DNA of 23,422 nucleotides, from the IMG/VR virus record IMGVR_UViG_3300017719_000211, positions 1-23,422 of that record. The stretch is one strand, 5' to 3'. The translations under genes and the position numbers were made by a program. Source of the stretch: a virus. Below, in pieces: positions 8,248 through 20,998 of this stretch; the first letter of the stretch is position 1, and each line of letters begins with the position of its first letter. The notes beneath the pieces are model-generated. The model worked only from the letters and a program-made list of their open reading frames with translations, made no database searches and had not been told where the DNA came from.

Positions 8248-9571
8248 TTAAATCTACATAAGTAACTTTTTGAGTCTGACCTATACGATGTGCTCGTTCT
8301 TCAGATTGCAATCTATGTTCAGCATCAAAGCTGTTAGAATAATATATGACTAATGTTGCAGCTGTAAGAGTTAAACCATAACCACCTGTAGATGGATTGG
8401 CTACAAAGAATCTACATTTAGGATCGTTTTGAAATAGTTTAATAGCCTTAGATCTATCTTCACTACTAACGGCACCATAAAAATTGACCACGGACTCAGG
8501 CCCATATTTTTGTCTAAGCTCTGAAGTAATATCTTCTATGTTGTGCACCCAGTTAGCCCAAATAATTGTTTTAGCATCTGATTCATCTAATATTTCAAAC
8601 AAAGTCTTCATCTTATTGTTTTCTAATTTTTTAATAATAGAAGATTCACCTTTAAAAAAACCAGCAGTAATTTGATGTAGTCTTATTATTTCAGTCATTG
8701 CATTATTAACAGTCATATAATCACCTTGTAGATTAGTATGTGCTTGTTGTTTTAATTCATTGTATAAAATTCTTTGCTCATCTGTTAAATGAACTACACG
8801 TTTTTGATACAATTTAGGAGGTAAATCTAAACATTCGTCTTTACGTACTCTAAATGAAAATTGTTTTATTTTATTTTCTAACTCTTCAAGATTTTTAAAA
8901 CCCACTGGTATGGCTATTTGTTTATCTCCATATGAATGCATCATTTCAAAAATACAATATCTATTTTTAAATGCAGTAAATGTAGGGAAATTTAAAAGCT
9001 TAGGATCTAAAAATTCACATTGGCTATAAATATCAATTGGTGATTTAGTAATTGGTGTACCCGTTAGTATACGTCTATATTTAGCAAGTGGTCTAATCTT
9101 AATAAGATTCTTAGTCCTCATAGCTTTGATATTTTTAATTGTAGACGATTCGTCTATACCAACTAACGCATCATGTTTATGTAAAAAATCACAAGCAATA
9201 TTATATCCTTTTTTAGTTGAGAAGGCTTCTACGTTCATAACTAATATTTTACATTTTTGAGAAGGTGTTTGAATAAATTTTTTTACTGTTTTTTCTAACG
9301 TAGGTTTCCATAAACAAACTTCATGAGGTATGTTAATATGTTTTGGAATCTCATCATTAACCCAAATAGTATAGACAGATTTAGTAGCTATTATAAGAGC
9401 ACTATCTATATCTTGTGTTGTGTATAAAACTCCTATGTTATCAATAAGTACTTTTGTTTTACCTGTACCCATCTCCATAAATAAAGCGTACGACTCTTTA
9501 TTCCAACAAGCCTCTAATGCTTTACGTTGGTGATCAAACGGTTCAGTCTTAAATTTATACTTAGCTACCAC
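8147..9571 (-). CDS. SF2 DEAD/SNF2-like DNA helicase
   Basis: A 474-aa ATP-dependent DNA translocase of superfamily 2. Motif I is MGTGKT (residues 34-39) after an N-terminal Q-motif-like FDHQRKAL. Motif II is DESS (140-143), the variant seen in many phage SNF2-like helicases. Motif III is LTGTPI (169-174), and motif VI lies near residues 424-435 (SEERAHRIGQT). The SNF2-type RAHRIGQ motif is diagnostic. It starts at GTG 9571 with no ATG nearby and no clear binding site. It is the only - strand gene in the replication block and converges with the exonuclease, overlapping it by 101 bp. It shares a 65-bp divergent spacer with the 177-aa gene. It probably acts in replication or recombination. Confidence 0.88.
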   Translation of the reverse strand: MVAKYKFKTEPFDHQRKALEACWNKESYALFMEMGTGKTKVLIDNIGVLYTTQDIDSALIIATKSVYTIWVNDEIPKHINIPHEVCLWKPTLEKTVKKFIQTPSQKCKILVMNVEAFSTKKGYNIACDFLHKHDALVGIDESSTIKNIKAMRTKNLIKIRPLAKYRRILTGTPITKSPIDIYSQCEFLDPKLLNFPTFTAFKNRYCIFEMMHSYGDKQIAIPVGFKNLEELENKIKQFSFRVRKDECLDLPPKLYQKRVVHLTDEQRILYNELKQQAHTNLQGDYMTVNNAMTEIIRLHQITAGFFKGESSIIKKLENNKMKTLFEILDESDAKTIIWANWVHNIEDITSELRQKYGPESVVNFYGAVSSEDRSKAIKLFQNDPKCRFFVANPSTGGYGLTLTAATLVIYYSNSFDAEHRLQSEERAHRIGQTQKVTYVDLITEGTVDEKIVLSLKSKFRLSAQTLGEVVRTWL

Positions 9572-9590
9572 AAAAAAGTTTTTAATTTAC

Positions 9591-9618
9591 TTGACAAAGA
9601 AAATCAATAGTTTAATTA
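9591..9618 (+). promoter_or_regulatory. Weak sigma-70-like promoter before 177-aa gene
   Basis: A perfect -35 (TTGACA, 9591-9596) is followed after 16 bases by TAATTA, a poor -10; TTTAAT at 9611-9616 is a better hexamer but only 14 bases away. It lies in the divergent spacer, 20 bases before AAAGGAG and the ATG at 9637. The -35 reads as TTGTCA on the other strand, toward the helicase, but no convincing -10 follows there. Confidence 0.4.
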
Positions 9619-9636
9619 CAAATCAAAGGAGAAAAA

Positions 9637-10170
9637 ATGGTAGATCCTATAATAAAAGCACTTGAAAAAGTGGATAAAGAAAAAACATCAACACTTGTTG
9701 ATATGGCTAGAAACTTAGTTGATACTAAGAAGGCTATAGAAGAATCTGAAAAGAAAACAAAGGAATTGAAAGAAAAAGCTAGACTTTTATCTGAAGAACA
9801 AATTCCTAATTTTCTTCAAGAAATGGGTGTAGATGCTATAAAAACTCCCTTTGGTACTATTGGATATGATCTGAAGTATAGAGGGCATATTTCTAAGGCT
9901 AATCAATCACAAGCTCATGATTGGTTAAGAAAAGAAGGCCATGGAGATATTATCAAAACTGAAGTGTCAGCTAGTTTTGGAATGGGCGAGACTGACAAAG
10001 CGCAAAACATGTTAGCGTCTTTGCGTGATAATGGTATGAATCCAAACTTTAAAGAAGGCGTTCATCACTCAACTCTATCATCTTGGATAAAAGATATGAC
10101 CGAGAAAGGTAGAGATATACCTGATGAAATGTTTGGAGTTTATATAGCTAACACAACAACTATAAAATAA
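9637..10170 (+). CDS. Conserved phage protein with N-terminal coiled coil, 177 aa
   Basis: I recognise the general type (found beside replication genes of marine and other phages) but no named function. Residues 20-65 are a Lys/Glu coiled coil, followed by a segment around residues 64-77 (MGVDAIKTPFGTIG) that recalls the layout of Gp157-like phage proteins. A second domain begins at about residue 88 (ANQSQAHDWLRKEGHGDIIK). The ribosome binding site AAAGGAG is strong. It is the first gene of the + strand replication operon after the divergent helicase and lies 8 bases before the next gene. A role in recombination or single-strand DNA handling is possible but unproven. Confidence 0.65.
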   Translation: MVDPIIKALEKVDKEKTSTLVDMARNLVDTKKAIEESEKKTKELKEKARLLSEEQIPNFLQEMGVDAIKTPFGTIGYDLKYRGHISKANQSQAHDWLRKEGHGDIIKTEVSASFGMGETDKAQNMLASLRDNGMNPNFKEGVHHSTLSSWIKDMTEKGRDIPDEMFGVYIANTTTIK

Positions 10171-12526: not shown

Positions 12527-14075
12527 AACTGTAAAGATATACGGTCCACCTGGGACAGGTAAGACTACAACTCTTTTAAATAAATTAGATAAACTGTTTG
12601 CAAGAGGTATAATGCCCTCAGATGTTGCTTACTTATCTTTTACAAACAAAGCAGTAAATGAGGCAAAGAGTAGAGCTGAAAAACAATTTAAAAAACTAAA
12701 CGATGAGGATCTTAAAAACTTTAGAACCATACATAGTTTTTGTAGACAAAACTTTAAAACAAAACCTGTCATAGACCCTGAAATAGATATGGTTGAGTTT
12801 GCACAAGTATTGGGATTACCTAAATTACAATTTGAAAAGTATAATGGCCAACGTGTTTGGAATGATTGGTCTTTAAGAGTGTATGATAAGGCAAGAAATA
12901 TGCTTAAACATCCAGACGATGCCTACAAAGAAGAAAAAATGAAACGTGTAGTATTTGCAAAGTACAAATTAATTATAGAAGCTTATCAAGAATTTAAAGA
13001 AGACCATAGGGTAGATTTCACAGATATGATTGAGGAATACATAGAAAACGGTGTACCGCCTAGACTTAAAGTTTTAATTGTAGATGAAGCTCAAGACTTA
13101 ACACCATTACAATGGAAATTAATTTATAAGTTAGCTGCATTTAGTAAAAAAATATTTTTAGCAGGAGACGATGACCAGGCGATCTATGAATGGAATGGTG
13201 CGGATGTAGAAGAGTTTAATGAATTTCCAGGTAGAGATTACATACTGAGAAAATCATACAGGATTCCTTCAGACATACACGATTACTCTCAATACATTGC
13301 GAGTTACATTCATGGTAGAAAACGTAAAGAATTTATACCTCAAGAAAATGTGGGTAGTATAAATACTTATAATAGATTGAAAGACATACCCTTCAGCGAA
13401 CACGGATCATGGATCATGTTAGGTAGAACTAATGACATAGTAGATGAACTAAGAATGAAAGCAAGAGAAATGGGATTATTCTTTCAAGACTCAAAAGGTA
13501 GAAAATCATTTGATCTTAACAAATGGAAAGCAATACAAATTTGGTTACGTTTAATGAAAGGAGAAAGTATAGATAGAGAAGAAGTTCAAATTATATACAC
13601 CTTTATAAATGAAATAGGATTTGGTTGGCGAAACATAGAATCAAAACGATGGTACAACATACATAATAGCCAAGAATTAAATTATGATTATTTAAATGTT
13701 TGGTGTGGCCTGGGATCATTAAAAAAACCATGGACAGATGTATTTAATAGAAATTTCCCAGAAAAAGAAAAGTTTTATTTTGAAAAACTTATTGATTCTG
13801 GCATAGATATTGTTAAAAATTCAGAGATGATAATTGATACGATACATTCGATCAAGGGTGGTGAAGCTGATAACGTAGTTATTTATGAAAAAACTAATTG
13901 GATTGCTTCAATACAAAATAAAATTGGTTTAGATAGAAGTTCAGAATATAGGGTATGGTATGTGGGTGTGACTAGAGCAAAACAAAATATTCATATATTA
14001 AGAAGTGTTAGTGAGTATTTTTTTCCACTATCTAGAATGTTAAATGAAGTAAGGAGAGTTAAACATGTCAGCTGA
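12507..14075 (+). CDS. UvrD/Rep-type SF1 DNA helicase
   Basis: A 522-aa 3'-5' type SF1 helicase. Walker A is GPPGTGKT (residues 13-20), then LSFTNKAVNEAKSR (motif Ia), RTIHSF, Walker B VLIVDEAQDL (189-198), motif III AGDDDQAIYEWNGA (about 219-232), motif V DTIHSIKGGEADNVV and motif VI YVGVTRAKQNIHIL near the C-terminus. I start it at ATG 12507 because it places the P-loop 12 residues from the N-terminus; an in-frame TTG at 12459 is deep inside the primase gene. With no DnaB-like helicase visible, it is a candidate replicative or recombination helicase working with the primase. AAGGAGAG within its 3' end serves the next gene. Confidence 0.88.
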   Translation: MNQLANKTVKIYGPPGTGKTTTLLNKLDKLFARGIMPSDVAYLSFTNKAVNEAKSRAEKQFKKLNDEDLKNFRTIHSFCRQNFKTKPVIDPEIDMVEFAQVLGLPKLQFEKYNGQRVWNDWSLRVYDKARNMLKHPDDAYKEEKMKRVVFAKYKLIIEAYQEFKEDHRVDFTDMIEEYIENGVPPRLKVLIVDEAQDLTPLQWKLIYKLAAFSKKIFLAGDDDQAIYEWNGADVEEFNEFPGRDYILRKSYRIPSDIHDYSQYIASYIHGRKRKEFIPQENVGSINTYNRLKDIPFSEHGSWIMLGRTNDIVDELRMKAREMGLFFQDSKGRKSFDLNKWKAIQIWLRLMKGESIDREEVQIIYTFINEIGFGWRNIESKRWYNIHNSQELNYDYLNVWCGLGSLKKPWTDVFNRNFPEKEKFYFEKLIDSGIDIVKNSEMIIDTIHSIKGGEADNVVIYEKTNWIASIQNKIGLDRSSEYRVWYVGVTRAKQNIHILRSVSEYFFPLSRMLNEVRRVKHVS

Positions 14076-14895
14076 TTTAAGAATATTATCATTAGGTGCA
14101 GGAGTACAAAGTTCAACCCTTGCATTAATGATTGAAAAGGGTGAGATACCAATGGTAGATTATGCTTTATTTTCGGACACGGGTTCGGAGCCTGCGAAAG
14201 TATATGAGTGGTTAGAGTGGTTGACTAAACAACTGTCTTATCCTGTTAATATAGTATCTGCTGGGTCATTAAAAGAAGGTATGGTCAAGTCAAATGAAGG
14301 AACATATGTAAGAGGGTCTACAGTACCAATGTATGTAAGACACAAGATAACTGGTAAAAAAGGTATATTAAGGCGTATGTGTACCGCAACATATAAAATA
14401 GAACCAGTCACAAAAGAAATACGAAGATTACTTGGAGTAGGGTATAAACAAAGAGTTCCAAAAGATAAAAAAGTTCAACAAATATTTGGAATATCAAACG
14501 ATGAATCTATTAGAATGAGAGTATCTCAATATCATTATATAGATTTTGAATATCCGTTAATTGATAAAAGAATGTCTAGAGCTGATTGTTTTAAATGGAT
14601 GAAAGCTAATAACTTTCCCGAACCACCAAGATCTGCATGTACGTTTTGTCCATACCACTCTGATGCAGAATGGTTAAGAATTAAAACAGAAACACCCGAT
14701 GAATTTGAAGAGGTGGTACAGTTAGATAAAAAACTTAGAACAGGTTTTAAAGGATGTAAGCCTGAAGAAAATGATTATTTTTTACATAGATCTGGTAAAC
14801 CTTTATCTGAAGTTGATTTTAAAAAGAAAGATGATAAACAAGGAGACTTGTTAGAAGGTTTTGACGGGGAGTGCGAAGGAATGTGTGGAGTGTAA
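14065..14895 (+). CDS. PAPS-reductase-like PP-loop protein with Cys motifs
   Basis: A 276-aa member of the adenine nucleotide alpha-hydrolase (PP-loop) superfamily, PAPS reductase/DndC-like branch, common in phages but with no settled role. The PP-loop SLGAGVQSST lies at residues 9-18 and is followed by FSDTGSEP. Cys106 (RRMCTATYKIEPV), Cys175, a CTFC pair (Cys192, Cys195), Cys231 and a C-terminal CEGMC (Cys270, Cys274) suggest an iron-sulfur or zinc site. Such proteins activate a substrate by adenylation and often move sulfur. Strong AAGGAGAG precedes ATG 14065; it overlaps the helicase by 11 bases and the next gene by TAATG. The context (helicase before, polymerase after) suggests nucleic acid modification rather than sulfate assimilation; this is inference. 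Confidence 0.8.
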   Translation: MSADLRILSLGAGVQSSTLALMIEKGEIPMVDYALFSDTGSEPAKVYEWLEWLTKQLSYPVNIVSAGSLKEGMVKSNEGTYVRGSTVPMYVRHKITGKKGILRRMCTATYKIEPVTKEIRRLLGVGYKQRVPKDKKVQQIFGISNDESIRMRVSQYHYIDFEYPLIDKRMSRADCFKWMKANNFPEPPRSACTFCPYHSDAEWLRIKTETPDEFEEVVQLDKKLRTGFKGCKPEENDYFLHRSGKPLSEVDFKKKDDKQGDLLEGFDGECEGMCGV

Positions 14896-15098
14896 TGTTT
14901 AGAAAATTAATATTAGATGCATTAGAAGATAAATATAATTCACAAATTAGTGAAGCGGAGGCAACTTTAAAAATTTATTTAGAAAATCCTGTAGCAATTG
15001 GTGAACATCCTCAACATGTAGATGAGGCTGATAAATTAATAGAAAAAATTGCGACTGCTGAAGAGAAGTTAGAAATATTGAGGGCTTTTAGATTATGA
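14895..15098 (+). CDS. Small conserved phage protein, 67 aa
   Basis: A short, acidic, two-helix protein: residues 1-30 form one helix, a YLENPVAIGEHPQHVDE linker follows, and a second Glu/Lys-rich helix closes the chain. The PVAIGEHP linker is familiar from small proteins beside replication genes of marine phages, but I know no function. The start at 14895 (TAATG overlap, with TGGAG a few bases before) is preferred to the in-frame GTG at 14871 inside the PP-loop gene. Its stop overlaps the next start (ATGA). Confidence 0.65.
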   Translation: MFRKLILDALEDKYNSQISEAEATLKIYLENPVAIGEHPQHVDEADKLIEKIATAEEKLEILRAFRL

Positions 15099-15370
15099 TA
15101 GATGATAACGATTTTAAAGAAGCTTTTCCTTTAGATCACCAGGAGGGTGGTGAGCATTATAAACAATTACCTATTCAACCTTTTACATATTGTAGAAAAA
15201 ACAAATTAAACACAACGCAGTCTAATATTATCAAGTATGCATCTAGATTATATACAAAGGGAGATCCAATAGAACAATTGAATAAAATAATTCATTACTG
15301 CCAGCTTGAAAAAGATTTTATAAGAAATGACAAAAGTAATAAAAAAACAAATAGAAATAAAAAAACATAA
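15095..15370 (+). CDS. DUF3310-like phage protein
   Basis: This 91-aa protein carries the DUF3310 pattern: HYKQLPIQPFTY (about residues 21-32), then NIIKYASRLYTKGDPIEQLNK (about 44-64) and HYCQLE. This small family is widespread in phages near DNA metabolism genes; its biochemical role is unknown. It is translationally coupled to the previous gene by ATGA. The last 15 residues are a Lys/Asn run that overlaps the start of the 80-aa gene and may be dispensable. Confidence 0.75.
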   Translation: MIDDNDFKEAFPLDHQEGGEHYKQLPIQPFTYCRKNKLNTTQSNIIKYASRLYTKGDPIEQLNKIIHYCQLEKDFIRNDKSNKKTNRNKKT

Positions 15371-15569
15371 ATTTACTTTAGAAGTATATCCTCATTTGGA
15401 GGGGACTAAAGATGTTACTTGGGAAGTCTTTCCTGTAAATTATAATGCAGCACTTTATGCATTTAGTAACAAAGATCAATTGAACAAACATATAGAGGAC
15501 AAATATATTTATGAGCCAACAAATAAACTTAGCGTACCAAGAAAGTTCAGACTGGAAAACACCAACTAG
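15327..15569 (+). CDS. Small overlapping protein, 80 aa
   Basis: An unrecognised small protein with alternating strand-like residues (HKFTLEVYPHLEGTKDVTWE) and a helical end. It overlaps the DUF3310-like gene by 44 bases and the polymerase by 59 bases, but its middle 140 bases are not covered by another gene on this strand, and its codon use looks like that of its neighbours. No strong binding site precedes ATG 15327. A - strand frame in the same place encodes an apolar Cys/Phe-rich product that I treat as a shadow. Moderately sure it is real. Confidence 0.55.
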   Translation: MTKVIKKQIEIKKHKFTLEVYPHLEGTKDVTWEVFPVNYNAALYAFSNKDQLNKHIEDKYIYEPTNKLSVPRKFRLENTN

Positions 15570-17382
15570 TTTTCCTGATCTTAAAACAGCTAAAGAAATA
15601 GCTATTGACTTAGAAACTAGAGATCCAAACATTAAGAATAAGGGCCCTGGTTGGCCTACAATGGATGGTAATATTGTTGGAGTTGCTGTAGCTGCAGATG
15701 GTTTTGTGGGATACTACCCAATTGCTCATGAAAATGGATCTAATATGGATCTAAAAATGGTGCTTGATTGGATACAAGATGTAGTGTCAGGGCCTGGAGA
15801 TAAAATATTTCATAATGCACCGTACGATGTAGGATGGCTCAGGGCTCACGGCATACGGATCAAGAACGGTAGAATTATAGACACAATGATTGCTGCTGCT
15901 TTAGTAGATGAAAATAGATTTTCTTATTCATTAAATGCTTTAGGTTTTGATTTACTAGGAGAAACAAAATCAGAATTAGAGTTGAGGCAAGCTGCTGATG
16001 ATTGGGGAGTAAATGCAAAAGGCGAATTGTATAAACTACCTGCTAAATTTGTAGGTGCTTATGCTGAACAGGATGCATCCTTAACATTAAAACTTTGGCA
16101 ATATCTAAAAACAGAAATAATGAAACAATCTCTTACAGATATATTTAACACGGAGACAGAATTACTACCTATTCTAATTGAGATGAGAGCTGTAGGTGTT
16201 AGAGTAAATTTAGAGGAAGCTGAAAAATTAAAAAAAGAATTTGTTACTAAAGAAGATAAAATACTTTTAAAGATTAAAAAAGAAGCAGGAGTAAATGTAG
16301 ATATATTTGCTGCAAGATCTATTGCAAAAGCTTTTGACAAATTAAAAATAAAATATCCTTTAACTGAAAAAAGTAAAGAACCAAGCTTTACAGCTAATTG
16401 GTTACTTAACTGTGAATTTCCAATTGCAAAATTAATAAGAGAGGCAAGAGAAGTTCATAAGTTTCATGCAACATTTATTGATTCTATTTTAAAATTCCAA
16501 CACAATGGAAGAATACATGCTGAAATACATCAACTAAGAGGTGATGGAGGCGGTACAGTGTCAGGAAGACTGAGCTATTCTAACCCAAATCTACAACAAG
16601 TACCCGCCAGAAATAAGGAATTAGGGACAAAGATTAGGTCTTTATTTAAACCTGAATCTGGGTTACAATGGGGTTCGTTTGATTATAGTCAACAGGAGCC
16701 CAGACTTGTAGTTCATTATGCATCTTCAATTGGATTCCCAGGATCAGACAAACTAGTAGAGGCTTATGAAAAAGAAAACGCAGACTTCCACCAAACAGTT
16801 GCAGAAATGGCAGGAATCCCCCGATCCCAAGCAAAGACAATTAACTTGGGAATCTTTTACGGTATGGGCGCGAGAAAACTTTCCAATGAGTTGGGAATCG
16901 AAACCAACGAAGCCAAGTTACTTTTACAAGAATATAATCAGAGAGTTCCATTTGTTAAACAACTAGCTAACCGATGTATGGAATCTGCTGAGAAGTACGG
17001 ATCTATACGGACCATACGTGGTCGTAAGTGTAGATTTGATAAGTGGGAACCAATGGCCTGGGGTTTGTTTAAATCAGAGACCTATGAATCTGCAATAGAA
17101 AAATACGGAAAGAATAATATTAAACGAGCAGGTACTTACAAATCATTGAACAGATTAATTCAAGGATCAGCTGCAGACCAAGTTAAAGTGGCTATGATTG
17201 AATGTTACAAAGCTGGATATCTACCTCTAATTCAAATACATGATGAATTATGTTTTAACGTTAGACCTGCAAAAGATGCAGATGAAATAAAAAAGATAAT
17301 GGAAGATTGTATAAGTGAACTTAAAGTTCCCTCTTTAGTCGATGTTGCAATTGGTAAAGACTGGGGATCGGCTCAAGATTAA
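15511..17382 (+). CDS. polA: Family A DNA polymerase with 3'-5' exonuclease
   Basis: A 623-aa replicative polymerase. The DnaQ-like exonuclease has the DEDDy residues: Asp33 and Glu35 (AIDLETRDP), Asp106 (HNAPYDVGW), and Tyr184 and Asp188 (YAEQDAS). The polymerase domain has motif A DYSQQEPR (391-398, Glu396 in place of E710 of E. coli Pol I), motif B RSQAKTINLGIFYGMG (438-453) and motif C QIHDEL (575-580). Leu446 is at the position of E. coli Phe762. No 5' nuclease domain is present, as usual for phage enzymes. ATG 15511 has GAGGAC about 10 bases upstream and lies inside the 80-aa gene. It closes the + strand replication operon. Confidence 0.95.
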   Translation: MSQQINLAYQESSDWKTPTSFPDLKTAKEIAIDLETRDPNIKNKGPGWPTMDGNIVGVAVAADGFVGYYPIAHENGSNMDLKMVLDWIQDVVSGPGDKIFHNAPYDVGWLRAHGIRIKNGRIIDTMIAAALVDENRFSYSLNALGFDLLGETKSELELRQAADDWGVNAKGELYKLPAKFVGAYAEQDASLTLKLWQYLKTEIMKQSLTDIFNTETELLPILIEMRAVGVRVNLEEAEKLKKEFVTKEDKILLKIKKEAGVNVDIFAARSIAKAFDKLKIKYPLTEKSKEPSFTANWLLNCEFPIAKLIREAREVHKFHATFIDSILKFQHNGRIHAEIHQLRGDGGGTVSGRLSYSNPNLQQVPARNKELGTKIRSLFKPESGLQWGSFDYSQQEPRLVVHYASSIGFPGSDKLVEAYEKENADFHQTVAEMAGIPRSQAKTINLGIFYGMGARKLSNELGIETNEAKLLLQEYNQRVPFVKQLANRCMESAEKYGSIRTIRGRKCRFDKWEPMAWGLFKSETYESAIEKYGKNNIKRAGTYKSLNRLIQGSAADQVKVAMIECYKAGYLPLIQIHDELCFNVRPAKDADEIKKIMEDCISELKVPSLVDVAIGKDWGSAQD

Positions 17383-17402
17383 AAAAAGGGCAGAAAACCC
17401 TT
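17381..17402 (-). terminator. Rho-independent terminator for the - strand genes
   Basis: On the - strand a 5-bp stem (AAGGG/CCCTT, 17398-17402 with 17386-17390) with a 7-base loop is followed by seven T. It lies 40 bases after the stop of the 68-aa gene. The + strand has no T-run after the hairpin, so it should act mainly against - strand transcription running into the polymerase gene. Confidence 0.6.
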
Positions 17403-17441
17403 GTATCAAATTAATGATTTTGTAAAAAATGTTAGTAAAGA

Positions 17442-17648
17442 CTAAGTATCTGTTTTGTCTTCGTCTTTATCTACATCTAAAAGACCAGCTCTAGCGTCAA
17501 TCTCACTTTGCTCATTAATCTTGACTCTAATATTTTTGATCTTTATGTCTATCCACTTCATGTCAGTAGTCACTCTACCCTGAGCTAACGCTTTGTTGGC
17601 CCATTGTGACTCCAACTGTAGTTTCTCCGATATTAACTTTTGTAACAT
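17442..17648 (-). CDS. Small coiled-coil phage protein, 68 aa
   Basis: An unrecognised helical protein: residues 1-50 are one amphipathic Lys/Gln/Leu-rich helix with a coiled-coil look, followed by an acidic tail (DVDKDEDK). The start is well supported by a near-perfect Shine-Dalgarno (GAGGAGGT, at 17654-17661) lying inside the 3' part of the 85-aa gene. The two genes overlap by 74 bases and should be on one transcript, ended by the terminator at 17381-17402. Confidence 0.65.
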   Translation of the reverse strand: MLQKLISEKLQLESQWANKALAQGRVTTDMKWIDIKIKNIRVKINEQSEIDARAGLLDVDKDEDKTDT

Positions 17649-17832
17649 CGTTGACCTCCTCTAAAGTAACAAAACAACAATTTGGATCACAGAATCCTTC
17701 ATCTTTAGGTTTTATTTGGCCTTCAAAACCTTGTTTAAAGAACTCAACCAATGCTCCAAAATCGTCATCAGCTTTAACTTCCGCATCGTAATAATTACTT
17801 TTATAACGAACTTGTATACGATACGTCTTCAT
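17575..17832 (-). CDS. Small phage protein with Cys cluster, 85 aa
   Basis: An unrecognised protein with a strand-rich N-terminus (MKTYRIQVRYKSNYYDAEVK), an acidic helix, and a CDPNCC cluster (Cys48, Cys52, Cys53) that could bind metal. There is no Shine-Dalgarno before ATG 17832; instead a promoter-like pair ends 6 bases upstream, so the mRNA is probably leaderless. The C-terminal 25 residues overlap the 68-aa gene and contain its binding site. Moderately confident from length, N-terminal pattern and the promoter. Confidence 0.6.
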   Translation of the reverse strand: MKTYRIQVRYKSNYYDAEVKADDDFGALVEFFKQGFEGQIKPKDEGFCDPNCCFVTLEEVNDVTKVNIGETTVGVTMGQQSVSSG

Positions 17833-17838
17833 GTATGT

Positions 17839-17867
17839 AGATTAATGAAAATGGGAGGAAAAGTCAA
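17839..17867 (-). promoter_or_regulatory. Sigma-70-like promoter, leaderless, before 85-aa gene
   Basis: On the - strand TTGACT (17862-17867), a 17-base spacer and TAATCT (17839-17844), with 6 bases from the -10 to ATG 17832, place the start of transcription at about the start codon. The -10 is weak (3 of 6). Confidence 0.45.
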
Positions 17868-17870
17868 GTG

Positions 17871-18122
17871 TTATGCAGGATCACCCTTTTTATCAGCACT
17901 TGGTACTGCTCTGCATTCAAATTTAACAACTATTTTGTTGTTTTCTACGTATTCTTTATCAAATTCTTCAGTTTCTTCTAATGATCTAAACGCATTATGA
18001 GCAACTCTGTAACCCATTTCAACACAATCTGAATGACTGTTAAAAGTGTATCCTGGTATAAAATTACTTGGACAATCGTTTGATACCATGCTGCACATAT
18101 ATAAAACTAAAATATATTTCAT
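17871..18122 (-). CDS. Small Cys-containing, possibly exported phage protein, 83 aa
   Basis: The N-terminus (MKYILVLYMC) is Lys followed by an apolar run, like a short signal or anchor. Four Cys (10, 17, 33, 70) are spread along a small domain with GYTFNSHSDCVEMGYRVAH, followed by a Glu-rich helix and a KFECRAV strand. Small proteins of this pattern are frequent in marine phage genomes; function unknown. Export and disulfides (or lipid attachment at Cys10) are possible, although the apolar stretch is short. No Shine-Dalgarno is seen; a promoter-like pair ends 6 bases before ATG 18122, which points to a leaderless mRNA. Confidence 0.65.
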   Translation of the reverse strand: MKYILVLYMCSMVSNDCPSNFIPGYTFNSHSDCVEMGYRVAHNAFRSLEETEEFDKEYVENNKIVVKFECRAVPSADKKGDPA

Positions 18123-18128
18123 AAAGCT

Positions 18129-18157
18129 ACCATACGAGTTATTTTATTACTTGACAA
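18129..18157 (-). promoter_or_regulatory. Sigma-70-like promoter, leaderless, before 83-aa gene
   Basis: On the - strand TTGTCA (18152-18157), 17-base spacer, TATGGT (18129-18134), then 6 bases to ATG 18122. The -35 is the other face of the + strand TTGACA at 18151-18156, so the two promoters share it. Confidence 0.5.
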
Positions 18158-18178
18158 TCGTCATGTCAACACTATATT
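18151..18178 (+). promoter_or_regulatory. Strong sigma-70-like promoter, near-leaderless, before 86-aa gene
   Basis: TTGACA (18151-18156), 16-base spacer, TATATT (18173-18178). The expected start is about 18185, two bases before the ATG at 18187. It is divergent with the promoter of the 83-aa gene and overlaps its -35. Confidence 0.65.
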
Positions 18179-18186
18179 CATGGGAC

Positions 18187-18447
18187 ATGAAGAAATTGGT
18201 AGCTGAACAAACAACTATAGATACGGAAGTAAAAACCACCGACCAAGGATCAAGGTTAGATCTTAATGATGGTAATATCGAACGTTTCTCAGTTGAAATA
18301 GATAGGGATTCAAAACAAATAAAATTATTTGTTGGAACTAAAACAAATGATGTCATAACTATGGACGATCACACACGGTTAGAGAGAATCTTTAACACTT
18401 TGCTTAGTACCGTAAAGCAGAAGATAACTTTTTGGAAAGTAAATTAA
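18187..18447 (+). CDS. Small phage protein, 86 aa
   Basis: An unrecognised protein of strands and one helix: KKLVAEQTTIDTEVKTTDQ, then RFSVEIDRDSKQIKLFVG as a likely beta hairpin, then a C-terminal helix with TRLERIFNTLLSTVKQK. The frame is open upstream to 18046, but the promoter at 18151-18178 lies inside that extension, so I take ATG 18187 as the start; the mRNA would be leaderless or nearly so. First gene of a + strand run of small genes; its stop directly abuts the next ATG. Confidence 0.6.
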   Translation: MKKLVAEQTTIDTEVKTTDQGSRLDLNDGNIERFSVEIDRDSKQIKLFVGTKTNDVITMDDHTRLERIFNTLLSTVKQKITFWKVN

Positions 18448-18654
18448 ATGAATGTATATAGTTGGAAAGAACTAAATCTAAAAGTTGATAGTCTTATTAA
18501 ATCTGTGAAAGAATCAGAATTTAAAGATAAGGCGTTCATTGATATTATTGCTGGGCGTATAGCAGATATTACGTTAGTGCTTGGCGAAACTGGATATAAT
18601 TTATTTGATAAGACAATTGCCAAAAGGATGATTGATGCAGAAATTGAGAAATGA
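18448..18654 (+). CDS. Small phage protein, 68 aa
   Basis: An unrecognised all-helical protein (WKELNLKVDSLIKSVKESEF, then FIDIIAGRIADITLVLGETG, then a charged final helix). It begins on the base after the previous stop and overlaps the next gene by 20 bases, which suggests a co-translated set. No strong binding site is seen. Confidence 0.6.
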   Translation: MNVYSWKELNLKVDSLIKSVKESEFKDKAFIDIIAGRIADITLVLGETGYNLFDKTIAKRMIDAEIEK

Positions 18655-18988
18655 TGAAGATATTATTAATTTTAGTCGTTATGTTTGTTTTGCTATGGCT
18701 ATCTTTTCCGCGCACGATTTCAATCTTGGTTCTAGCTCTATTGATAGGACTGACATGAGTTTAGGTAAAGGTATAGATCTTAATCACCCTGTCATAAAAT
18801 GGGTAAAAATGTTAATGGAAAATTATGACATTGGAGATTTAATAGACGAACATATTGTAGGTGAAGACCCACCACTTAACGATGCAGAATGTCAAAAAAG
18901 ATTAAAACAGTTTTTTGAAGCTTTTGAAAAAAAGACTGGGTACACACCAGAAAAAGCCATTAGAGATATACGTGGTTTCATGAATTAA
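18635..18988 (+). CDS. Conserved-looking phage protein, 117 aa
   Basis: Unrecognised. Helical, acidic C-terminal half; a Met/Phe/Ala-rich helix near residues 12-26 (FSRYVCFAMAIFSAHDF) looks buried rather than membrane-spanning. The start ATG 18635 has AAAGGA 6-7 bases upstream inside the previous gene, preferred to the adjacent TTG at 18632. The following gene begins 13 bases after its stop with its own AAGGAG. Confidence 0.6.
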   Translation: MQKLRNDEDIINFSRYVCFAMAIFSAHDFNLGSSSIDRTDMSLGKGIDLNHPVIKWVKMLMENYDIGDLIDEHIVGEDPPLNDAECQKRLKQFFEAFEKKTGYTPEKAIRDIRGFMN

Positions 18989-19001
18989 CAAGGAGAAAAC
19001 A

Positions 19002-19328
19002 ATGACAAAAGAAAATAAACCAAGATCAGAAACAAAAAAGGTAGTAATTCAATTAGAAGATTGGATTGATAACGTAGAAGCTTGGGAAGAAAACATCTAT
19101 GCATTCATGGTGTATGGAAAAGATCTTCTAAAGTTTATGGTAGAGCAGCATCCTGAAACTAAAAAGGCATTTATGGAGGCACGAAAAACACCGAAAGGTA
19201 AAATGGAAAGGTCTCCAGACTATCCTTGTATGGTTAGTTTTACTGATGGTGAATATTTTGATCAACAAATTGAAACAGGGAAAAGACAAGCTGAGATTAA
19301 AGCTTTAACAGAACTTAAAAATGGTTGA
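19002..19328 (+). CDS. Small phage protein, 108 aa
   Basis: Unrecognised. It has a Lys-rich start, an aromatic/acidic segment (QLEDWIDNVEAWEENIYAFM, about residues 17-36), a central helix, and a Pro/Lys stretch (ARKTPKGKMERSPDYP) before a last strand and helix. A strong AAGGAGA precedes the ATG. It overlaps the 58-aa gene by 8 bases. Confidence 0.6.
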   Translation: MTKENKPRSETKKVVIQLEDWIDNVEAWEENIYAFMVYGKDLLKFMVEQHPETKKAFMEARKTPKGKMERSPDYPCMVSFTDGEYFDQQIETGKRQAEIKALTELKNG

Positions 19329-19497
19329 TCAAACTTTAGACGAGGTAAGGGCGGTGCAGGAGGCCAACAAAGGCCGACGGCACCAGGAGATTAAAAATGC
19401 CTACAAAAGAAAAATAACTAACTTCACTAAAGATTGTTCTGTTCAAAGTTTAGAAAAAATAGTAACACTAATTGAGAAAGAAGAGGAAAAATTATGA
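19321..19497 (+). CDS. Short basic/acidic helical protein, 58 aa
   Basis: A short gene that fills the gap between two clearer ones. It starts at the ATG overlapping the previous 3' end and stops in an ATGA overlap with the next gene, so its ends fit the local coupling pattern exactly. The product is mostly helical and highly charged (LDEVRAVQEANKGRRHQEIK; ending VTLIEKEEEKL). The first third (19340-19395) is richer in GC than its surroundings. No function recognised. Confidence 0.5.
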   Translation: MVDQTLDEVRAVQEANKGRRHQEIKNAYKRKITNFTKDCSVQSLEKIVTLIEKEEEKL

Positions 19498-19691
19498 ACG
19501 TGATGAGACATAAATCAGTTGCGGTACGCAAACCAGACTACGATGTTTTAAAAGGATTATGTGGCAAGGAACACAGAGGGCCTAGCCAGTACATATCGTT
19601 ATTGATTAAAAAAGAAGTTGAACGACGGGCGAAGGATCGTAAAATGACTCCAGAAGCTTATGTTAAGAAGATATTAGTCGATAAAAAATAG
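19494..19691 (+). CDS. Ribbon-helix-helix-like DNA-binding protein candidate, 65 aa
   Basis: A small basic protein with KSVAVRKPDYDVLKGLCG (residues 8-25) as a likely beta strand plus first helix and GPSQYISLLIKKEVERRAK (about 29-47) as a turn plus second helix. This is the layout of Arc/MetJ-type ribbon-helix-helix regulators, which dimerise and bind palindromes. It begins in an ATGA overlap; GAAGAGGA lies upstream. A 6-bp inverted repeat (TTGTAT/ATACAA) lies 4 bases after its stop, over the -35 of the next promoter, a possible target. The family assignment is a judgement by eye. Confidence 0.5.
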   Translation: MNVMRHKSVAVRKPDYDVLKGLCGKEHRGPSQYISLLIKKEVERRAKDRKMTPEAYVKKILVDKK

Positions 19692-19694
19692 CAC

Positions 19695-19723
19695 TTGTAT
19701 TGATATACAATTAAGAGTATAAG
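19695..19723 (+). promoter_or_regulatory. Promoter-like pair with palindrome over the -35
   Basis: TTGTAT (19695-19700), a 17-base spacer and TATAAG (19718-19723). The -35 forms the left arm of a perfect inverted repeat TTGTAT-4 bases-ATACAA (19695-19710), which could be an operator. The predicted leader to GTG 19807 is about 75 bases and AT-rich. Confidence 0.4.
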
Positions 19724-19806
19724 CGAGATAGTTGACGTACAACTATAAAAACGAATCATTTTATATTTACATTTTTCATTTTAATAACAATAATTTAGGA
19801 GTATTT

Positions 19807-20019
19807 GTGGCTGAACTAGACAACGCAATAAAACTAATCGCTTCTCGTACTAATCGTGAAGAGTTTAAAAAAATTAAATCTGTTATGTACGGATTATTTT
19901 GTGGAGCTAGTTTTGGATTTGATGATAGTGGCATGGCCTTCAGAGTCCACCTTGATCAGATTCGTAATAAAACAGATAAGGAGAAACTTAATGCGAGAGT
20001 ATTACGCGTAGTTAAGTGA
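19807..20019 (+). CDS. Small phage protein, 70 aa
   Basis: I choose GTG 19807 because AGGAG (19797-19801) lies 5 bases before it. An in-frame TTG at 19732 would add 25 residues of Tyr/Asn/Phe-rich sequence with no binding site. The product has a helix (ELDNAIKLIASRTNREEFKK), a Gly/Phe-rich segment (GLFCGASFGFDDSGMAF) and a basic helix. Family not recognised. A long perfect hairpin follows its stop at once. Confidence 0.5.
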   Translation: MAELDNAIKLIASRTNREEFKKIKSVMYGLFCGASFGFDDSGMAFRVHLDQIRNKTDKEKLNARVLRVVK

Positions 20020-20020
20020 C

Positions 20021-20088
20021 TTAAATGAGGGCTGGGTGATCTCTTTTGTCATCTACAGAGCTACCATTCTGGCCCAGTCCTCGTTTAA
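20021..20088 (+). other. Long hairpin: 16-bp stem, 36-base loop
   Basis: TTAAATGAGGGCTGGG (20021-20036) pairs with 20073-20088 over 16 positions with two G-U pairs when read as RNA. The loop contains CTCT/AGAG arms for a small inner stem. It begins right after the 70-aa gene and ends 9 bases before ATG 20098, which lacks a Shine-Dalgarno. No T-run follows, so it is not a classic terminator; an RNase III site, a translation control element or a leader RNA are possibilities. Confidence 0.6.
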
Positions 20089-20097
20089 TTCATTACC

Positions 20098-20433
20098 ATG
20101 TTAATCGAGGAGCTAAAAACAGGATATGAGTCTAAAAAAATATTACCAGAACAGAAATTATGGAGGGCTGTTCTCCAACGCGCTTTTGAAGATGTTATAT
20201 ATCCTGGTTTGGAAAGACCGTTGGTGGTACAGAAGTATAAGGCACACGGTTGGTTCTCTGATGGGGGCGACGATTTTAATACTGTGTGTTCTTTGGCTGG
20301 GTTTGATTACACTTACGTATACGACACTTATCAACGAATGGTAGATAATGAACAGGTCTACTTCTCAAAAGATCAGATCAAATACATTAATTGGCGAAAA
20401 GAATATAATAGAAAAAGAAAAATACGACTTTGA
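20098..20433 (+). CDS. Conserved phage protein, 111 aa
   Basis: A protein type I have seen in phage genomes without a function: a WRAVLQRAFEDVI helix (about residues 22-34), a GWFSDGGDDFNTVCSLAGFD motif (51-70) in which the acidic-FxxVCxLAGxD part is the hallmark, and YVYDTYQRM. The final Lys/Arg-rich tail is encoded in the 86-base overlap with the HNH gene. No Shine-Dalgarno is seen; translation may depend on the hairpin just upstream. Confidence 0.6.
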   Translation: MLIEELKTGYESKKILPEQKLWRAVLQRAFEDVIYPGLERPLVVQKYKAHGWFSDGGDDFNTVCSLAGFDYTYVYDTYQRMVDNEQVYFSKDQIKYINWRKEYNRKRKIRL

Positions 20434-20998
20434 ATTAAAATATAGAATAGTTAGACGGTCCGCTAAAAAATGTAGTAAATGCGGTAAAACACAAAATTTA
20501 CAAGAATTTTATTTTAAGGCTGGGAAACGAAGACTCCAGGCAGAATGCAGGACGTGTTTAAATACTAGTCGTATTAAAAAACACTCATCTAATCCAATTG
20601 AATATATTGACTATCTTACAAAAAATTTAAGAAATAATAGTATTCATAAAAAACGTAAAGAGTCTAAACTTCAACGTCATGAATATTTAGAGATATTTAA
20701 GTTGCAGCATGAAAGGTTCGGTGTCCGTTGTCCATACTCAGGCATAGAGATGACCTGGGAGCTTGGTTTAGGTAAGGCTAAAGAAACTAATATAAGTATT
20801 GATAGATTCGATTCTAAGAGGCCGTATGAGTGGGGAAACGTGGTGTTTTGCTGTTGGTTTGTAAACCGAATGAAATATGATTATACGGACTTAGAGTTCA
20901 TTGGTGCGTGTGAGCATATTGCTAAAAATAAGGAAGGGTTTACTCAAGTGAGAAAGTATCTTAAAGAAAAGGCCCAGTGGGCGAAAAAAATCAACTAA
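20348..20998 (+). CDS. HNH-type endonuclease with N-terminal zinc ribbon
   Basis: A 216-aa predicted nuclease. A four-Cys zinc ribbon (CSKCG at 42-46, CRTC at 67-70) is followed by a basic helical linker and a His-Me/HNH-like core: CPYSGIEM (128-135), ISIDRFDSKRPY (149-160), WGNVVFCCWFVNRMK (162-176). This matches phage HNH enzymes with an SxDRxDs core, although the usual first His is not obvious, so activity is not certain. The only reasonable start is ATG 20348, deep inside the 111-aa gene. HNH genes in phages can be homing elements or packaging/replication accessories. A perfect 10-bp inverted repeat spans its stop codon. Confidence 0.75.
   Translation: MNRSTSQKIRSNTLIGEKNIIEKEKYDFELKYRIVRRSAKKCSKCGKTQNLQEFYFKAGKRRLQAECRTCLNTSRIKKHSSNPIEYIDYLTKNLRNNSIHKKRKESKLQRHEYLEIFKLQHERFGVRCPYSGIEMTWELGLGKAKETNISIDRFDSKRPYEWGNVVFCCWFVNRMKYDYTDLEFIGACEHIAKNKEGFTQVRKYLKEKAQWAKKIN

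Follow-up and report, generated by a model that had tools for sequence, protein, structure and literature searches.

The window, which is the whole stretch of DNA analysed here (G000, a virus record of 23,422 bases), encodes an AEP-type primase, a UvrD helicase, a PAPS reductase and a family A DNA polymerase. The window has the gene order primase-helicase-polA and, after it, small divergent genes, a feature of the HTVC023P type. The window DNA polymerase is closest to that of Pelagibacter phage HTVC023P (60.0% identity over 99% of the protein), and the layout after polA is shared as well: gp09(-), gp10(-) and gp11(+) in HTVC023P, and likewise two small genes on the minus strand and a divergent one on the plus strand in the window. 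For these two reasons the window is taken as a pelagiphage of the HTVC023P type, and its host is probably to be sought among the abundant SAR11 marine bacteria. Comparison of positions 15500–20500 with annotated phages found no DNA similarity, a search of the window against Rfam gave no structured-RNA match, and the window contains no tRNA. Elsewhere in the window, the phosphoadenosine phosphosulfate reductase gene (14065–14895, plus strand) lies within the replication region, and a second divergent pair, a SNF2-type helicase gene (minus) and a Pam3 gp33-like gene (plus), occurs at 9571–9637 with a TTGTCAAG/CTTGACAA stretch between the two. The features of the small-gene locus are as follows.

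17442–17648, minus: 68-aa ORF in a different frame from the 85-aa gene, whose end it overlaps; strong Shine-Dalgarno (SD) site (GAGGAGG)
17575–17832, minus: 85-aa gene of the MKxYR family, an intact ORF represented by a 39-row alignment (A1); best leaderless candidate
17839–17844, minus: -10 box TAATCT of the 17832 promoter, 6 bases before the ATG
17862–17867, minus: -35 box TTGACT of the 17832 promoter, read in the sequence, with a 17-base spacer to the -10
17871–18122, minus: 83-aa gene of the PHROG 19893 family (phrog_19893, E = 6.1e-21), found in many pelagiphages; 20 phage records
18129–18134, minus: -10 TATGGT first assigned to 18122, 6 bases before the ATG with a 17-base spacer; TAAGGT or TAATGT in many relatives
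18152–18157, minus: -35 TTGTCA first assigned to 18122; 9/12 consensus match together with its -10
18141–18146, minus: stronger -10 box TAAAAT of 18122, 18 bases before the ATG, with a predicted leader of about 11 nt
18164–18169, minus: stronger -35 box TTGACA of 18122, 11/12 consensus match with its -10; TTGACA or TTGACT in relatives
18151–18169, both strands: 19-base shared segment TTGACA-N7-TGTCAA, holding both -35 boxes, each within the spacer of the other promoter
18151–18156, plus: -35 box TTGACA of the 18187 promoter, invariant in 14/14 distinct sequences
18173–18178, plus: -10 box TATATT of the 18187 promoter, 8 bases before the ATG, invariant in 14/14 distinct sequences
18187–18447, plus: 86-aa gene (MKKLVAEQ), intact in 13/13 relatives read; predicted to be leaderless or to have a 2-nt leader

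The initial annotation described the starts at 17832 (-), 18122 (-) and 18187 (+) as lacking an SD site and as preceded by -35/-10 pairs with 16–17-base spacers that end 6–8 bases before the ATG. Both descriptions are accurate: an SD-like 4-mer is found at none of the three starts, and all three pairs are present where they were placed. The further proposal that transcription begins at or near each ATG agrees with the conserved geometry of 17832 and 18187; at 18122 it gives way to a stronger promoter with a putative leader of about 11 nt. A scan of related phages for the same -10-to-ATG distance, suggested there as a check, shows it kept at 17832 (85/85 and 48/48 upstream regions in two samples) and at 18187 (14/14), whereas 18122 keeps TAAAAT at 17–18 bases instead.

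The most extensive evidence comes from the family of 17832. Its 119 members in the sampled loci, most of which begin with MKxYR, provide 85 distinct upstream regions. Each of these (85/85) contains a sigma70-like promoter (score of at least 7) whose -10 box ends 5 (77 cases) or 6 (8 cases) bases before the ATG, and none (0/85) has an SD-like 4-mer in the last 20 bases. The promoters themselves differ, with TTGACT/TAATCT, TTGCAA/TATAAT, TTGCAA/TAAGAT, TTGACG/TATACT and TTGAAA/TATAAT all occurring at the kept distance. Within the class with an 18-base spacer (72 upstream regions), the -10 box hardly changes, the centre of the spacer is variable, and the five bases before the ATG take 26 forms. 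Several promoter sequences keep the same -10-to-ATG distance, a pattern that selection on the distance itself would be expected to leave. Transcription start sites prefer a pyrimidine at -1 and a purine at +1, and the usual distance from the -10 box to the start is 7. The base preceding the ATG in the MKxYR family is C (49) or T (36) and never a purine (0/85), as against 49–50% pyrimidine in other genes, which fits transcription starting at the A of the ATG. It should be noted that five bases between the -10 box and the ATG make the A the sixth base, a little closer than the usual 7, and this counts against a leaderless reading. The exact start base is thus something we infer from the -10 distance and the pyrimidine at -1.

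Most of the MKxYR loci (L055–L174) had been retrieved through a DNA motif beside the neighbouring gene, and a separate sample was therefore selected by protein pattern. It comprised the best 80 of 304 relatives, of which one was dropped for its short upstream region and 79 were used, giving 48 distinct upstream regions. The promoter geometry, a pyrimidine before the ATG and the lack of an SD site were each found in 48/48, counts that, like those of the first sample, are not independent, the sampled phages being related within each sample and some contigs being common to both. Of these 48 upstream regions, 23 are from loci in which the neighbouring-gene DNA motif was not found. The family also includes HTVC023P gp09, the syntenic homologue of 17832, with TTGACC-N17-TATACT-N5-ATG upstream; tblastn of the phage collection with the 17832 family gave no match, yet gp09 joins the family in blastp clustering. 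Taken together, the conservation strongly supports a leaderless placement of the 17832 promoter.

Expression of 17832 could also be explained by read-through: a long mRNA starting upstream of 18122 would carry the gene, translation would rely on coupling or on initiation without an SD site, and the local promoter would play a minor part. The two genes are indeed arranged head-to-tail in the window as well, and in HTVC023P and contigs L049/L054 the promoter of the 17832 homologue falls within the 3′ part of the gene before it, and the stop codon of that gene overlaps the ATG, so that translational coupling is possible there. In most of the 85 upstream regions, however, the preceding stop lies 34–47 bases upstream, and the gap contains just the promoter, keeping the -35 box, the -10 box and their distance to the ATG while the other bases vary. 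We therefore consider read-through improbable. The 68-aa ORF at 17442–17648 would share one transcript with the 85-aa gene, so that an SD-led and a leaderless start would be combined on the same RNA.

Analogously, TTGACA-N16-TATATT-N8-ATG upstream of 18187 is unchanged in 14/14 distinct sequences, while its spacer holds a hypervariable stretch and the encoded proteins fall to 62% identity across sequences with the invariant promoter. For this comparison the tblastn start was used, several 18187 homologues having been mis-started by the first-ATG rule. The conservation extends into the first codons, and the base preceding the ATG is always C or T among the 14 sequences. A transcription start 7 bases past the -10 box would leave a 2-nt leader, and a start at the ATG none; a leaderless placement in this sense (leader of 0–2 nt) is strongly supported by the conservation.

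The situation at 18122 is different. The best-scoring promoter of this gene is TTGACA-N17-TAAAAT (18169–18141), located 12 bases upstream of the pair first assigned to it; the initial annotation missed both this promoter and its overlap with that of 18187. TAAAAT is kept 17–18 bases from the ATG in 13/13 relatives read, with TTGACT as the -35 box in L016. Since this stronger and better conserved promoter would leave a short leader, a leaderless reading is not the best one for 18122, which is more likely a short-leader gene (about 11 nt) transcribed from TTGACA/TAAAAT. AAGGT stands at SD distance upstream of the homologue in several relatives, and most members of the family in other pelagiphage contigs have an SD-like site.

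These observations bear on a second alternative for the locus as a whole, namely that the promoters are real and produce short leaders, with ribosomes starting by a non-SD or weak-SD route. It accommodates 18122 well, given the position of TAAAAT in 13 relatives, the AAGGT at SD distance in several and the SD-like sites of the same gene in other pelagiphage contigs, and a 2-nt leader at 18187 would also agree with it. At 17832, by contrast, there is no room for such a leader, the -10 box and the ATG being 5–6 bases apart in 85/85 upstream regions. For the locus as a whole we regard this alternative as unlikely, though less so than read-through.

The divergent promoters of 18122 and 18187 overlap, and the variable bases sit between their -35 boxes. 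The same DNA should therefore not fire both ways at once; judging from this geometry, the two promoters would be mutually exclusive.

Several further sequence features were seen around 18122 and its counterparts. Upstream of HTVC027P gp35 (L191, 6185–6219), TTGACTATCCCATTGTCAAGTAGTAAAAC-N6-ATG is like the promoter region of 18122 in the window, and the genes themselves are unrelated by clustering. In many pelagiphage contigs (L026–L034, L038 and most of L055–L174), ATGGGATATGCAAG is located shortly upstream of an SD-led 18122 homologue, and in 89/97 distinct contexts a -10-like hexamer of the TATAAA type ends 7 bases before it. ATGGGATATGCAAG encodes a micro-ORF such as MGYASK* or MGYARKK*. 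A similar sequence, TTCATGGGACATG, is present in the window at 18178–18189 (+), on the opposite strand and overlapping the 18187 start.

The generality of this geometry was assessed by counts against chance, with a generic, approximate sigma70 matrix and with hits defined as scores of at least 8 ending 5–8 bases before a start. Among 201 starts from the window, HTVC023P and HTVC027P (96 without and 105 with an SD site; HTVC027P gp24 and gp25, neither of them among the hits listed, are counted twice in overlapping pieces), such promoters precede 10/96 SD-less starts, compared with 0.67 after shuffling and 1.08 in the remaining 4-base bins, and 1/105 SD starts, compared with 0.62. Three of the 10 SD-less hits are the window trio, and 7 are from the isolates HTVC023P and HTVC027P. 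The candidates in HTVC027P are gp15, gp31, gp35 and gp53. In 1,174 non-redundant phage upstream regions, the geometry is found at 55/648 SD-less starts versus 5.0 (maximum 9) in other bins; SD starts show no excess (2/526 versus 4.6). The MKxYR family supplies 34 of the 55 hits, and after its removal 21/612 SD-less starts remain versus 5.0 (maximum 9), or 19 families versus 4.4 (maximum 8). The starts behind these 1,174 regions and the 85 MKxYR upstream regions are uncurated first ATGs of ORFs of at least 50 aa (at least 60 aa for bacterial genomes and loci), so some genes are mis-started.

Two statements of the initial annotation need revision in this light. The trio had been viewed as set apart in a phage otherwise driven by SD sites, whereas other SD-less genes of HTVC023P, HTVC027P and related contigs also show an excess of this geometry. 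Moreover, good SD sites had been ascribed to most other genes of the window, and even by a loose criterion an SD-like 4-mer is present at only 15 of 32 hand-listed window starts.

The same counts address the possibility that chance produces -10-like hexamers close to ATGs where the intergenic DNA is AT-rich. Promoter matches across 15000–20500 as a whole show no clear excess (26 versus 20.8, sd 5.3), as such an origin would predict. Both the position-specific tests and the conservation, however, exceed chance expectation, SD-bearing genes lack the excess, and for 17832 and 18187 the conservation tests already refute this explanation, which we consider very improbable. In bacteria, two small AT-rich genomes presumed to be SAR11-like gave 9/331 versus 2.8 (maximum 6) and 8/326 versus 2.3 (maximum 5), and SAR86 loci gave 8/358 versus 3.1 (maximum 9). 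The host-like signal is thus weak and non-specific, and because the SAR86 loci show an excess similar to that of the presumed SAR11-like genomes, a weak excess alone is not diagnostic of leaderlessness.

The explanation we favor, and consider quite probable for 17832 and 18187, is that the two genes are transcribed by host RNA polymerase into leaderless mRNAs. Under this model, the intergenic segments 17833–17870 and 18123–18186 would carry host-type sigma70 promoters, and the ribosome would bind the 5′-terminal AUG directly, presumably by 70S-type initiation. The -10 box of 18187, fixed 8 bases before the ATG, would give a leader of 0–2 nt, while 18122 would receive its leader of about 11 nt from the TTGACA/TAAAAT promoter. 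According to the available part of PMC12753301, HTVC027P lacks an RNA polymerase and depends on that of the host, which suits consensus sigma70 promoters and makes early expression of the small-gene cluster plausible by analogy with this relative. The same part of PMC12753301 gives the functions of the HTVC027P early genes as all unknown. A search for phage RNA polymerase (PF00940) found 0 in 9 related records and likewise 0 in a 14-genome control, so that absence is not demonstrated by this search.

The 85-aa protein is predicted to fold as strand-strand-helix-strand, the model being confident at residues 1–63 only, with a low-confidence tail. VIA-align matches it to T7 Gp2 (4lk0_M) with Z 5.2 and rmsd 3.5 over 49 residues, and ribosomal protein chains score equal or higher (Z up to 6.1); all these Z scores are within the range that the tool marks as common, and the Foldseek E-value is 0.39. 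Profile A1 had no match up to E 10 among solved chains, Gp2 included, a search that distant relatives can escape. For the MKxYR family, Pfam gave weak scattered matches only (DUF3906 in 9/39, best E 0.0026), PHROGs a match in 1/39, and NCBIfam weak matches only. T7 Gp2, ribosomal proteins, PurS and others were considered as identities for 17832 and set aside as tied or near-tied matches without sequence support; no function is claimed. The resemblance of the predicted fold to both T7 Gp2 and a ribosomal protein does raise the idea, which we consider improbable, that the 85-aa protein, expressed from a host sigma70 promoter through direct 70S initiation, is the first one produced and targets the transcription or translation apparatus of the host. 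The 86-aa protein of 18187 is predicted to be a beta-sheet with a C-terminal helix.

Leaderless phage mRNAs are already known elsewhere. In telomere phage PY54, as described in the accessible part of PMC4488713, cI and cro are divergent and each is leaderless by RACE, transcribed from a strong promoter immediately upstream of the start codon. The likeness lies in the divergent leaderless phage genes, with the RNA ends deduced from DNA in our case; the difference is that cI and cro are repressor genes of a temperate phage, whereas the window genes encode unrelated small proteins and the relative HTVC027P is described as lytic. The lambda cI mRNA also begins at its AUG, according to the parts available of PMC4488713 and PMC9031893, but it is made from a regulated repressor promoter and has no sequence relation to the window genes. 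Alphaproteobacteria, the presumed class of the host, routinely translate leaderless mRNAs, to judge from the accessible portions of reports on Caulobacter (375 leaderless mRNAs; PMC4117421) and Sinorhizobium (171; PMC3616915), although these are host genes and the portions in question hold no SAR11 or pelagiphage data. HTVC023P and HTVC027P share the replication gene order with the window, and HTVC023P shares the gp09/gp10/gp11 layout too; the 86-aa gene 18187, in contrast, was unmatched in the phage collection by tblastn. Searches of an open-access library brought up no account of leaderless genes in pelagiphages, which is not proof of absence; the word "leaderless" occurs in PMC2704228, PMC7892664 and PMC9004378 in the reference lists only, and "promoter" does not occur in the main text of PMC9599517.

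In the 17832 family, the leaderless geometry read from the DNA is family-wide. Because it is the distance rather than the sequence that is conserved, the DNA allows an unusually confident prediction of leaderless starts here, and this prediction is directly testable with HTVC023P on strain HTCC1062, which can be cultured. If true, it is also a warning that pelagiphage genes are misjudged by gene finders and promoter scans that depend on SD sites. The MKxYR family, in our opinion, is a conserved gene deserving a functional test.
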